Of a stretch of DNA of 23,376 nt, positions 2,719-18,845 are shown in pieces. The notes below the pieces were generated by a model that saw only the letters and a list, made by a program, of their open reading frames with translations, had not been told where the DNA came from and searched no databases. The stretch is from a virus. How positions within the stretch are numbered: position 1 is the first letter of the stretch; each line of letters opens with the position of its first letter. The stretch is taken from positions 1 to 23,376 of IMG/VR virus record IMGVR_UViG_3300025849_000228; one strand, given 5' to 3'. A program made the position numbers and the translations under genes.

Positions 2719-2882
2719 TGGTCCCATGGTATGAAAGAGATGATATTGGCGAGTATTTGATTGACGTAAGTGCATCAATTCACGACGGTCAGATCGATGA
2801 TGCTATCTGTGCTTGTATCAGGGTTGGTATGAGTGATGAAGAAATTGATGAGTTTTTGGACTCGAACGGAGTTGTACAATGA
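2718..2882 (+). CDS. Small acidic protein, 54 aa
   Basis: Read by hand: ATG at 2718 overlaps the previous TAA, with an ideal AAGGAGG (2704-2710) upstream. The product has a C-x-C pair (A-I-C-A-C-I) and a very acidic second half (M-S-D-E-E-I-D-E-F-L-D). It probably forms two or three helices. The next gene overlaps as ATGA. Unknown function. Confidence 0.68.
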   Translation: MVPWYERDDIGEYLIDVSASIHDGQIDDAICACIRVGMSDEEIDEFLDSNGVVQ

Positions 2883-3106
2883 GAGATTTGACCGGTAAGA
2901 TTTGTGAAATCGATTATGTCGGTTCGGGTGTGAGAGTTCTTGGTAGGATTACACAGTCACGGTACAGTTCTTATGATGGTGTGACGCACCACTTTGAGTT
3001 CATGACGCCGTTTCGGTTTCGAACAGATAGTCATGATCATGCAATTATCCGTGAAGTTGGCGAAAGCTCTGTCGCTGATGATATCCGAATCACCAAAATT
3101 TGGTAG
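2879..3106 (+). CDS. Unknown early protein, 75 aa
   Basis: Last gene of the P3 unit, overlapping the previous stop (ATGA). The sequence reads as a small beta-rich domain (L-T-G-K-I-C-E-I-D-Y-V-G-S-G-V-R-V-L-G-R-I-T), perhaps an SH3- or OB-like barrel, but this is only an impression. It is followed by the upstream-box remnant and the long hairpin. Confidence 0.68.
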   Translation: MRDLTGKICEIDYVGSGVRVLGRITQSRYSSYDGVTHHFEFMTPFRFRTDSHDHAIIREVGESSVADDIRITKIW

Positions 3107-3116
3107 CTCTTATTCC

Positions 3117-3132
3117 AAAATGTTCTAAAAAA
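3117..3132 (+). promoter_or_regulatory. Orphan copy of the promoter upstream box
   Basis: AAAATGTTCTAAAAAA matches the box that precedes P2, P3 and P5 but is not followed by TTGACA. A long inverted repeat begins 16 bases downstream, as if a promoter had been interrupted or replaced. Confidence 0.5.
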
Positions 3133-3147
3133 AGTTTGTTTTCCTCG

Positions 3148-3216
3148 GCTGTAAGTCATTGATTTCATTGGAGGTTTTCGTCTCCTTTTCCTCCTTTAGA
3201 ATCAATGACTTACAGC
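3148..3216. repeat. Long hairpin, perfect 16-bp inverted repeat
   Basis: 3148-3163 and 3201-3216 are perfect 16-bp inverted repeats (GCTGTAAGTCATTGAT and its complement), extendable by one T-A and one G-T pair. Inside, GGAGG (3170-3174) can pair with CCTCC (3190-3194), making a two-stage stem of about 69 bases. It follows the operon 2375-3106 and is trailed by TTCCTTTCTTT, so it may be a terminator or a cruciform-type site. Confidence 0.75.
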
Positions 3217-3245
3217 TTCCTTTCTTTGTCAATATAGTGTATAAT
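3217..3245 (+). promoter_or_regulatory. Promoter-like -10 element before 3281
   Basis: Perfect TATAAT at 3240-3245; no good -35 at 17 bp (TTCCTT at 3217-3222). The sequence after it (ATAATTACTTTGTAATCAAC) closely matches that after P1, supporting a real start site that may need an activator. Confidence 0.5.
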
Positions 3246-3280
3246 TACTTTGTAATCAACGAGAAGAGAGAGAACTAAAG

Positions 3281-3523
3281 ATGGAAAAAATGACAAGAAC
3301 TGCTGCCTCTTATGAAACCTATGCTGAGTACGTTGCTGCTCGTCGTGCAACACGTCACCACGTTTTGCCTGAGACCTTGTGGGCTGCATTGAAAGAAGAC
3401 GAGACATTGTGTAACCCTCGAATGGCAGACGGGTATGCCGAGTTTGAGGCTGCATGGGAAGTGAAAGATATCTCTTTGAGATTAGATCCTAGTAAACCTG
3501 CTTACATCGTGAGGACCGTATAA
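3281..3523 (+). CDS. Unknown early protein, 80 aa
   Basis: ATG preceded by GAGAAGAGAG. The protein is soluble, with a helical, arginine-rich start (A-E-Y-V-A-A-R-R-A-T-R-H-H) and tryptophans in the middle. Its TAA overlaps the next ATG (TAATG). No family is recognised. Confidence 0.7.
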   Translation: MEKMTRTAASYETYAEYVAARRATRHHVLPETLWAALKEDETLCNPRMADGYAEFEAAWEVKDISLRLDPSKPAYIVRTV

Positions 3524-3846: not shown

Positions 3847-3855
3847 AAAAAAGCT

Positions 3856-3903
3856 AAAATATCTAAAAAAAGTGTTGACAAAACATTAAAAACCTGTCAT
3901 AAT
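3856..3903 (+). promoter_or_regulatory. Early promoter P4 (before the sigma-4 gene)
   Basis: TTGACA (3875-3880), 17-bp spacer, CATAAT (3898-3903). 3868-3915 is identical over 48 bases to 4453-4500 (P5). The upstream box (3856-3870) is degenerate and one base shorter than at P2, P3 and P5. Confidence 0.88.
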
Positions 3904-3935
3904 ATGATTTTAAACGATTGAGAAAGGGTGGTCAA

Positions 3936-4436
3936 ATGAAGAAAGGTTCTACGTTTTTAGAGTTTGGTGGAGTTCCAGTATCAGTGGGGGGAGAGTTTGA
4001 ACAGTACGATTATTTAGAGTCTGACATGGAAAACTGTGTCGAATTTGAAGCCGTGTCCGAAACTGATTTCGACCATTTTGATGAAGTTTCTGATGCCAAG
4101 AAATTGATCGAAGCAGCCTTAGAGACATTGTCCGAAAGAGAACGTAAGGTCATATACATGCGATTTGGTATTGGTTGTCGTACCGACCATACCTTAGAAG
4201 AAACTGGGTTTGCGTTTGAGGTGACCCGAGAGCGGATACGGCAAATCGAATCTAAAGTTATCAGGAAAATGCGGAGTTACCTTTTGAGGATGCCCAAAAT
4301 GACTCATGAAAGCTTTCATTATTCTGAAAAGGGGTCACCCCAGCGACTTTTAAGCGATTCCGAATATCGCCGAACACGAGTTCAGCATAACATGTTCTTA
4401 TCCTGTTATGGGTTGGATGAAAAGTTATATGCTTAG
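3936..4436 (+). CDS. Stand-alone sigma70 region-4 domain protein, 166 aa
   Basis: Residues about 56-115 match region 4 of RpoD-type sigma factors: A-L-E-T-L-S-E-R-E-R-K-V-I-Y-M-R-F-G-I, then D-H-T-L-E-E-T-G, then the recognition helix V-T-R-E-R-I-R-Q-I-E and a helical end. In housekeeping sigma this domain contacts the -35 box and the beta-flap of RNA polymerase. No region 2 or 3 is present; residues 1-55 are acidic and unlike sigma 1.1, and the C-terminal 45 residues are unrecognised. I choose ATG 3936 (after GAAAGGGTGG) over the in-frame TTG 3918, which lies only about 15 bases after the -10 box. The gene sits between promoters P4 and P5, which are identical over 48 bases. It may redirect host polymerase to TTGACA promoters or act as a competitor of host sigma; both are inference. 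Confidence 0.88.
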   Translation: MKKGSTFLEFGGVPVSVGGEFEQYDYLESDMENCVEFEAVSETDFDHFDEVSDAKKLIEAALETLSERERKVIYMRFGIGCRTDHTLEETGFAFEVTRERIRQIESKVIRKMRSYLLRMPKMTHESFHYSEKGSPQRLLSDSEYRRTRVQHNMFLSCYGLDEKLYA

Positions 4437-8531: not shown

Positions 8532-9311
8532 ATGGAAAATATATCATTAAGCAGGGTTGTCTCGGATGACCCTGCTGTTCTTTCTTTTTGCGAACTGATG
8601 AAAAACTACTCCGTTCGGCACGTAGACCAATCAGTAAAAATCAAAGAAACCAAAATTAACTCCGAAAGGGTGTTGACTTATATTCCGTCACATCGAATTT
8701 CTGCAGAGGGGTTGTGGAACCTCGCACGTAAGTTTAATATAGATCAGTCTCTCAAGTACACTATGACCAAAATGTATTATAGTAGCAAAAACATTGGGGT
8801 TTGCTTGGAAAAAAATGGCGACAAAAATAACTACAGGATATACACCGAGACGCATATCGGAAAAAGTGAATATGAAAGAGCATACAACAATCTCAAGTTC
8901 AAGATCAAGAATGTTGACTCCCTAAAATGGGATGCTGAAAATCCAGAAGGTGTAAAGAGAACATCTTATGAGTCTTTGCTTTATCCTAATCCTAAAAATA
9001 TTCAGTTAGCAATGCATATGGCAAATGTGAAGTATGTGCCTAAGGTTGTTCTGGATAAAATAACGAATCTGGGCAAAAATACTTTCTTAGGCACATACTT
9101 CGTAACTGATGATATCACCTCTCGCACTGCGGTGGATATAAAATTTCACGAGGAGTTTATGCTCTCTGACTTGGAACCGGAGCTTACTGCGTGGAGTAAA
9201 AAGAATTTGAAGAATCGCTTAGAAAAACTTGACATTTACCCCATTCATCATGTATCATTAGGGGTTGATGCAGACGATAAAAACTACGTAACGGTGTATT
9301 TTAAATTATGA
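8532..9311 (+). CDS. Unknown protein, 259 aa
   Basis: Starts one base after the PhoH stop. Soluble, lysine-rich, with no membrane segment, P-loop or cysteine motif. Internal charged stretches (K-S-E-Y-E-R-A-Y-N-N-L-K-F-K-I-K-N-V) and a C-terminal beta-like end (V-S-L-G-V-D-A-D-D-K-N-Y-V-T-V-Y-F-K-L) can be seen. Placement between PhoH and a nuclease, with a 4-base overlap to the latter, suggests a nucleic-acid role, but nothing in the sequence proves it. Confidence 0.8.
   Translation: MENISLSRVVSDDPAVLSFCELMKNYSVRHVDQSVKIKETKINSERVLTYIPSHRISAEGLWNLARKFNIDQSLKYTMTKMYYSSKNIGVCLEKNGDKNNYRIYTETHIGKSEYERAYNNLKFKIKNVDSLKWDAENPEGVKRTSYESLLYPNPKNIQLAMHMANVKYVPKVVLDKITNLGKNTFLGTYFVTDDITSRTAVDIKFHEEFMLSDLEPELTAWSKKNLKNRLEKLDIYPIHHVSLGVDADDKNYVTVYFKL
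9229..9258 (+). promoter_or_regulatory. Possible internal promoter before the nuclease gene
   Basis: TTGACA (9229-9234), 18-bp spacer, TATCAT (9253-9258), about 50 bp before ATG 9308. Confidence 0.4.
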
Positions 9312-18399: not shown

Positions 18400-18475
18400 T
18401 ATAAAGTTTTTAATGGTGTGTATTGTGGGTTTAATTATTGGTATTATTATTGGAGGCATAATTGTCATATTCTGA
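18386..18475 (+). CDS. Possible tiny membrane peptide, 29 aa
   Basis: Short frame with M-K-N-Y-S-I-K followed by a very hydrophobic, Ile/Gly-rich helix to the end (V-C-I-V-G-L-I-I-G-I-I-I-G-G-I-I-V-I-F). It overlaps both neighbours (14 bases each) in other frames and has only a weak ribosome site. The composition strongly suggests a membrane segment, but translation is unproven. Confidence 0.35.
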   Translation: MKNYSIKFLMVCIVGLIIGIIIGGIIVIF

Positions 18476-18845
18476 TAAAGTGATGGACCACTACGAGAAT
18501 CCTCGTAATGTGGGAAGACTAGACAAAGAAGCAGAAGATGTTGGCACTGGCATGGTCGGGGCCCCTGCTTGTGGTGATGTAATGCTTTTACAAATACAGG
18601 TGAATGATGATGGAATTATCGAAGATGCTAAATTTAAAACCTACGGATGCGGAAGTGCTATCGCGTCTTCCAGCCTCCTTACCGAATGGGTTAAAGGTCG
18701 CAATCTTGATGAAGCTGGGAGTATTAGAAACACCCAGATCGCAGAAGAACTCTGCCTCCCTCCCGTCAAAATCCACTGTAGTGTCCTTGCAGAAGATGCG
18801 ATCAAAGCTGCGATAAAAGATTATAGGAAGAAACACGTCATATAA
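18462..18845 (+). CDS. iscU: IscU-type Fe-S cluster scaffold protein, 127 aa
   Basis: IscU assembles [2Fe-2S] and [4Fe-4S] clusters from IscS-derived sulfur before transfer by HscA/HscB. The match to enterobacterial IscU is residue-for-residue in many places: Cys37 (A-P-A-C-G-D-V with Asp39), Cys63 (Y-G-C-G-S-A), the HscA-binding L-P-P-V-K at 99-103, His105 and Cys106 (I-H-C-S-V-L-A-E-D). All cluster ligands are intact and the full length is kept. Start is TTG 18462 with GGAGG five bases upstream; no ATG fits better. No iscS, hscA, hscB or fdx is in the window, so it must work with host partners. Likely horizontally acquired from a gammaproteobacterial host. The stop codon TAA forms part of a late promoter. 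Confidence 0.95.
   Translation: MSYSDKVMDHYENPRNVGRLDKEAEDVGTGMVGAPACGDVMLLQIQVNDDGIIEDAKFKTYGCGSAIASSSLLTEWVKGRNLDEAGSIRNTQIAEELCLPPVKIHCSVLAEDAIKAAIKDYRKKHVI

Follow-up and report, generated by a model that had tools for sequence, protein, structure and literature searches.

The longest perfect inverted repeat of the virus record IMGVR_UViG_3300025849_000228 is most likely a pair of IHF sites placed before a viral promoter rather than an RNA structure. Judging from its sequence and that of related loci, we consider it likely that both arms are binding sites for the IHF of the host, which face each other immediately before the -35 position of a phage promoter. The hairpin, either as RNA or as DNA, is best explained as a by-product of two near-fixed copies of one site set face to face. 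The window analysed here is the whole record of 23,376 bases, and the features discussed below are the following:

3116–3132, + strand: orphan copy of the upstream box, CAAAATGTTCTAAAAAA, with sister copies at three other promoters
3148–3216, no strand: whole inverted repeat, with 17-bp perfect arms, a 35-nt centre and a GGAGG/CCTCC inner stem
3152–3164, + strand: distal IHF-type site TAAGTCATTGATT (reverse strand AATCAATGACTTA), with GCTG (3148–3151) before the site
3175–3178, + strand: TTTT tract of the distal site, at +23 to +26 from the first base of the site
3186–3189, − strand: AAAA, forming the A/T tract of the proximal site, at +23 to +26
3200–3212, − strand: proximal IHF-type site, identical 13-mer, with CAGC (3213–3216) after the site on the + strand
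3217–3222, + strand: weak hexamer TTCCTT at the -35 position, with a 17-bp offset to the start of the proximal site
3240–3245, + strand: -10 element, TATAAT, with a 40-bp offset to the start of the proximal site
3244–3256, no strand: palindrome ATTACTTTGTAAT (ATTAC-N3-GTAAT) covering the likely transcription start; ATTACTATGTAAT in relatives
3281–3523, + strand: first gene behind the promoter, 80 aa, with 90–91% identity in 9 of 13 related loci

A Pfam search of the proteins encoded in the window revealed, among others, a gp32-like protein, PhoH and a NifU/IscU-like protein. The gp32-like protein shares 55–57% identity with its counterparts in Methylophilales phage Melnitz and Prochlorococcus phage P-SSM2, and because of this resemblance the virus is probably a T4-like phage. 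The IscU/NifU-like iron-sulphur scaffold protein (18462–18845, + strand; PF01592, E 2.5e-53) showed 81% identity to a protein of Phage C48C1 and 79% identity to two records named Acinetobacter phage MD-2021a. The 80-aa protein of 3281–3523 had no Pfam match at E 0.01. A 172-aa ORF further downstream (3918–4436, + strand) matched sigma-70 region 4 (PF04545, E 8e-16) and no other Pfam family at E 0.01, and it possibly encodes a -35-recognising domain of the phage itself; a TTGACA/CATAAT match lies upstream of it at 3875–3903.

The inverted repeat and its arms

An earlier note on this DNA had pointed out a 16-bp perfect inverted repeat enclosing a second G/C stem. Both observations were confirmed, with arms that are in fact one base pair longer (3148–3164 paired with 3200–3216) and an inner stem formed by GGAGG at 3170–3174 and CCTCC at 3190–3194; with this inner part included, the repeat search gave 27 nt at 85%. 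No other perfect inverted repeat of the window with a centre of 3–120 nt reaches this length, and the longest one found in 300 first-order Markov simulations of the window did not exceed 14 bp. A second perfect inverted repeat of 16 bp (9029–9044/9086–9101), located within the ORF 8532–9311, likewise exceeds the longest in any of the 300 simulated windows. At the RNA level, the region 3143–3235 was predicted to fold with −36.6 kcal/mol (z −8.58 against shuffles). Searches with Rfam at the gathering score matched two tRNAs in the window and nothing else, so the hairpin corresponds to no known Rfam RNA, and a search of named phages with the hairpin region gave no match.

Both arms contain the 13-bp core TAAGTCATTGATT, whose other strand, AATCAATGACTTA, perfectly matches the IHF consensus WATCAANNNNTTR as given in an excerpt of PMC7581858; an excerpted table of PMC6907758 carries the same string in the row of H-NS, apparently through a shift of rows. 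Each of the two sites of the window is accompanied by four A/T at +23 to +26, on the 5′ side of WATCAA. The 13-mer has no other copies within the window at up to two mismatches. As a yardstick we used phage lambda, where the same consensus pattern picks three sites in attP, whose IHF sites are named H1, H2 and H′. The A/T tract of H′ (TTTTTT) occupies +21 to +26, and the logo of the sites collected from viral contigs (see below) places it at +22 to +26. Moreover, the attP site TAAGTAGTTGATT at 27606 has its first five bases in common with the core of the window, and attP contains a TAAGTNNTTGATT site. The pL region of lambda (35400–36000), searched with up to one mismatch, yielded no site of the IHF consensus and was therefore unusable as a second yardstick. 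Among the matches listed, at least four A/T out of five at +22 to +26 were found in 48 of 78 sites, compared with 28 of 78 at the mirror position.

The promoter and its relatives

Two further claims of the earlier note, an orphan upstream box and a TATAAT lacking a good -35, were borne out by the sequence. The box CAAAATGTTCTAAGAAA, exact or with one change, occurs four bases before TTGACA at 1639, 2294 and 4439; its copy at 3116, CAAAATGTTCTAAAAAA, is followed by the inverted repeat and not by TTGACA, and the hexamer found 17 bp before the TATAAT of 3240–3245 is the poor TTCCTT. An additional diverged copy of the box occurs near 3849, and the string AAAATGTTCTAAGAAANGTGTTGACA was detected in four stretches of viral_contigs, three of them with additional copies of the box. 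The palindrome at 3244–3256 would be operator-like. Another ATTAC-N3-GTAAT palindrome is found at 705–717 with a similar following sequence (repeat D8), the two lying over or behind two -10-like elements.

Searches in viral_contigs with the downstream gene revealed 13 related loci, nine of them at 90–91% identity. Upstream regions were compared for eight of these nine close loci, L253 being without upstream DNA; the upstream DNA of L259 and L260 was left out of the comparison. In all eight, a pair of sites precedes the same -10 element at the same place. The left site is invariably [CT]AAGTCATTGATT, and the right one matches the consensus perfectly in L252 and L256 but differs from it by one base (AATCAGTAACTTA) in the other six. 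The centre measures 35 nt in six relatives, 36 nt in L252 and 24 nt in L256, where it is one helical turn shorter and both sites are perfect. Among more distant loci, L257 and L258 encode a homologous gene (46% and 43%) with no pair within the 220 bp before it. In L257, 0.7 kb upstream of the homologue and before another gene, we find the box CTTATTCCAAAACAATCTAAAAAAAGTTT followed by two tandem IHF-type sites and then by TTTACA and GATAAT. This -35 and -10 are offset by 17 and 40 bp, respectively, from the start of the proximal site, exactly the offsets of the window. The L257 sites form no hairpin. Both L256 and L257 carry a box similar to that of the window ahead of their IHF-type sites. On account of the L257 arrangement, box, two sites and promoter look like a unit, in which the hairpin would appear only if the distal site is reversed.

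These comparisons also bear on the proposal of the earlier note that a small insertion may have broken the original promoter; a MITE-like mobile element, for instance, would have separated the box from the -10. The box is indeed an orphan, its distance to the -10 is 80 bp greater than at 2294 and 4439, and one chromosomal pair of the same motif (L142) lies within a longer inverted repeat, potentially a mobile element. Nevertheless, the pair occupies the same place in the eight close relatives, and the order of box, site, site and promoter recurs in L257. Moreover, what recurs in other contigs is the core of the site with its short flanks and not the rest of the element, and the window contains no further copy at up to two mismatches. 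An insertion is thus unsupported and seems to us very improbable.

Recurrence of the motif and spacing of its pairs

The 17-mer GCTGTAAGTCATTGATT was found in at least 120 stretches of viral_contigs, compared with 10 for a control in which its inner four bases had been permuted, and among the matches listed it sits in many different sequence contexts. Removal of near-duplicates by their flanks left 121 exact core sites among these matches, with a logo that shows GCTG before the core, GG at +18/+19 and A/T at +22 to +26; the enrichment of GCTG is partly due to the query, as it belonged to the 17-mer searched. When sites with one mismatch were considered, 19 of 24 changes fell within the four NNNN positions of the consensus. 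These same inner positions do not seem entirely free, however: in 83 partner arms that had not been selected for them, G occupied the first in 75% and T the second in 77%, and the complete GTCA was present in 24 of the 83. Such a preference for an inner GT goes beyond the textbook IHF consensus and counts against a plain IHF reading. In this regard, the sites could belong to some other DNA-binding protein of host or phage whose target overlaps the IHF consensus, either an unknown activator or another protein of the DNABII family. The inner GT and the flanking GCTG (the latter part of the query) are more fixed than IHF would require, and a location upstream of promoters would suit an activator. 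On the contrary, the consensus positions, the position of the A/T tract and the position of the variation all fit IHF, and a TAAGTNNTTGATT site exists in lambda attP. No DNABII gene (PF00216) was detected in nine virus records, perhaps fragments, including that of the window, which fits the use of a protein of the host. We therefore regard a different protein as rather improbable, and host IHF as the likely ligand.

In nine named phages, TAAGTNNTTGATT was no commoner than its reversed control (5 places versus 6), with none in T4, KVP40, HTVC008M, P-SSM2 and C48C1. Six virus records, chosen as motif bearers or as relatives, contain 28 places versus 1 for the reversed control. As for chromosomes, 10 of the 185 genomes in the class of G001 contain the 15-mer TGTAAGTCATTGATT, at 16 places in all (none for the reversed control), and so do 2 of the 192 genomes in the phylum of G002. 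These counts say little on host range because genome sizes differ about threefold. A facing pair in a gammaproteobacterial MAG (L142, around 1001–1073) lies within a longer inverted repeat, in which GGGGGACATTCAGAGTTC precedes the sites and its complement follows them. This repeat may be a mobile element that bears the same site. In three other loci (L040, L048 and L078), a sequence resembling the 3′ end of a tRNA gene, read on the other strand, is found a few bases away from the motif, as expected of IHF sites near attachment sites.

The earlier note had suggested looking for the same hairpin elsewhere, and exact facing pairs were indeed detected in 2 stretches of genome_contigs and 11 of viral_contigs. 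For exact pairs with centres of 15–45 nt, we counted 11 stretches with facing sites, 48 with tandem sites and 3 with outward sites, numbers that were not deduplicated. Among the matches listed, 78 non-redundant sites included 7 with a facing partner, 13 with a tandem and 1 with an outward one, and 57 without any partner within about 70 bp; 4000 random positions gave 30 facing, 54 tandem and 30 outward partners. Both counts indicate that tandem pairs are commoner than facing ones. Pairs for the analysis of spacing were pooled from all the loci collected, many of them found by pair searches with bounded spacing. The 83 non-redundant facing pairs (centres of 20–50 nt) show peaks at 24–25, 33–35 and 44–45 nt, with R 0.60 at 10.5 bp and a best period of 10.36, R being at most 0.31 in 2000 uniform draws. 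The 24 exact facing pairs reached R 0.80 (0 of 5000 draws), and tandem pairs were phased less sharply (R 0.37, reached by 34 of 5000 uniform draws). A spacing in helical steps of about 10.4 bp is a mark of DNA-bound proteins rather than of RNA stems. The 35-nt centre of the window belongs to the second class; the commonest spacing is the 24-nt centre, at which the two A/T tracts would overlap and two IHF dimers may not both have room.

The earlier note also considered a terminator. More broadly, the repeat could be an RNA hairpin that stops transcription of the upstream operon or functions in a leader, either alone or beside IHF binding. The fold is very stable (−36.6 kcal/mol, z −8.58), and that of L248, L252 and L256 is weaker yet non-random (z −5.3 to −6.5). 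The repeat starts about 40 nt behind the stop of the ORF 2879–3106, and its right arm is followed by a T-rich, interrupted tail (5 of 8 T in the window and 6 of 8 T in all eight relatives). In seven of the eight relatives, moreover, the left site lies inside a separate terminator-like stem of 6–7 bp followed by a run of T, which suggests that a terminator of the upstream operon may overlap the left site there. The window and L250 lack such a stem, however, and around the motif in general it occurs at chance level, in 2 of 78 sites among the matches listed, compared with a mean of 1.5 when left flanks were dealt to other sites. As for the long hairpin, a stem with 6 G/C in 17 pairs and a 35-nt centre does not fit an intrinsic terminator. 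In an alignment of the window with six of the eight relatives (7 rows, 6 of them distinct, with many invariant pairs), 0 of 22 pairs had changed on both sides, so no compensatory change was seen. The stem pairs 81.7% of the cells versus 30–50% when slid, a difference to be expected where the structure derives from one of the aligned sequences, but this is about the shuffled mean of 81.0%; of the 17 outer pairs, 10 are invariant and uninformative. Furthermore, 57 of the 78 copies of the motif among the matches listed have no partner with which to pair, the two sites of L257 are in tandem, and spacing in helical steps has no known meaning for an RNA stem. A terminator is consequently not favoured, despite the T-rich tails and the small stems of the relatives, and an RNA role for the repeat appears unlikely to us. 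The idea of a ribosome site sequestered in the inner GGAGG found no support, since no ORF of at least 50 aa starts on the + strand between GGAGG and 3281.

A putative IHF-dependent promoter module

With 210 non-redundant sites and promoters counted in one or other direction, a TTGAC-N-TANNNT promoter was found within 130 bp downstream of 82 sites, compared with 173 of 4000 random positions. These control positions were drawn from all DNA and not just from intergenic regions, and a better control is the one-sidedness of the matches, 85 of which lie downstream and read away from the site versus 8 upstream that read towards it. Other IHF-consensus sites in the same loci had promoters at 8 of 27, and small controls gave 0 of 6, 0 of 1 and 0 of 1; TAAGTCATTGAAA, which is not an IHF core, gave 2 of 4. 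The distance from promoter to site is phased with R 0.37 and 0.35 at 10.5 bp, values reached by 1.5% and 0.8% of uniform draws, with best periods of 11.7 and 9.7, a result that is suggestive only. In a 101-kb phage contig (G381), the five modules analysed (L290–L294) carry two or three copies of the motif each, either facing or in tandem and with one diverged copy in L293, and in all of them a site lies a few bases before GGTTGACA; these modules possibly form an IHF regulon.

Altogether, the best reading of the inverted repeat region is that of an IHF-dependent module upstream of a promoter. Against it speak the preference for an inner GT, the imperfect right site in six close relatives, the lack of a pair before the homologous gene of L257 and L258, the counts in the nine named phages, the looser phasing of tandem pairs, the promoters at TAAGTCATTGAAA, and the terminator-like features of the relatives. 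Host IHF would occupy both sites and bend each of them by about 160 degrees, in agreement with the bend of more than 160 degrees given in an excerpt of PMC6907758. The two bends would fold the upstream DNA with its orphan box back towards the RNA polymerase, and such folding would offset the weak -35, so that the promoter would work with IHF or depend on it. It may also be that IHF represses at these paired sites. In a rigid-rod sketch with two bends of 160 degrees, the distance from box to -35 drops from 33 to about 10 nm at nearly any phase; since the approach is nearly phase-independent, the sketch leaves the phasing unexplained.

Single IHF sites at phage promoters are familiar. The IHF sites of lambda attP serve recombination; they have the 13-bp consensus in common with the sites of the window, and one of them has its A/T tract at the same offset, but they do not form a symmetric facing pair and are not set against a -35, as the sites of the window are. 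The RIP/RIB repeats of E. coli, which combine REP with an IHF site, are palindromic, extragenic and IHF-binding. In them the palindrome is made of REP sequences around the IHF site, whereas here the IHF-type sites themselves are the arms. Activation has been described, in an excerpt of PMC2753651, for the IS5-activated glpFK operon, where an upstream IHF site and an A-tract bend activate a sigma70 promoter in a phase-dependent way. That excerpt places a single, IS5-derived IHF site some 215 bp before the start of glpFK, in contrast with the two sites directly before the -35 position in the window. The phage-like promoters of the Caulobacter gene transfer agent are activated by bound IHF together with other factors (GafYZ), and the excerpt of PMC11150451 describes no facing pair like that of the window. 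A search of the open-access literature by word match found no description of a near-fixed IHF-type site in phased pairs across many uncultured phages.

More tentatively, and with somewhat less than even confidence, we propose that many phages share a promoter module made of two near-identical, optimised IHF sites, either facing or in tandem, spaced in helical steps and located directly before the -35, whose U-turns would form a fixed loop presenting upstream DNA to the RNA polymerase. If this were true, the spacings of about 24, 34 and 44 nt would offer a natural series for asking how two U-turns add up, and the 13-bp string would flag probable IHF-dependent promoters in phages from metagenomes, and may also point to hosts having IHF. 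The finding also carries a warning, as strong hairpins in the intergenic DNA of phages need not be terminators. For the phages themselves, gene expression would be geared to the IHF level of the host, that is, to its growth state, and the recurrence of the arrangement in many uncultured phages hints at a shared borrowing of a host protein for gene control.
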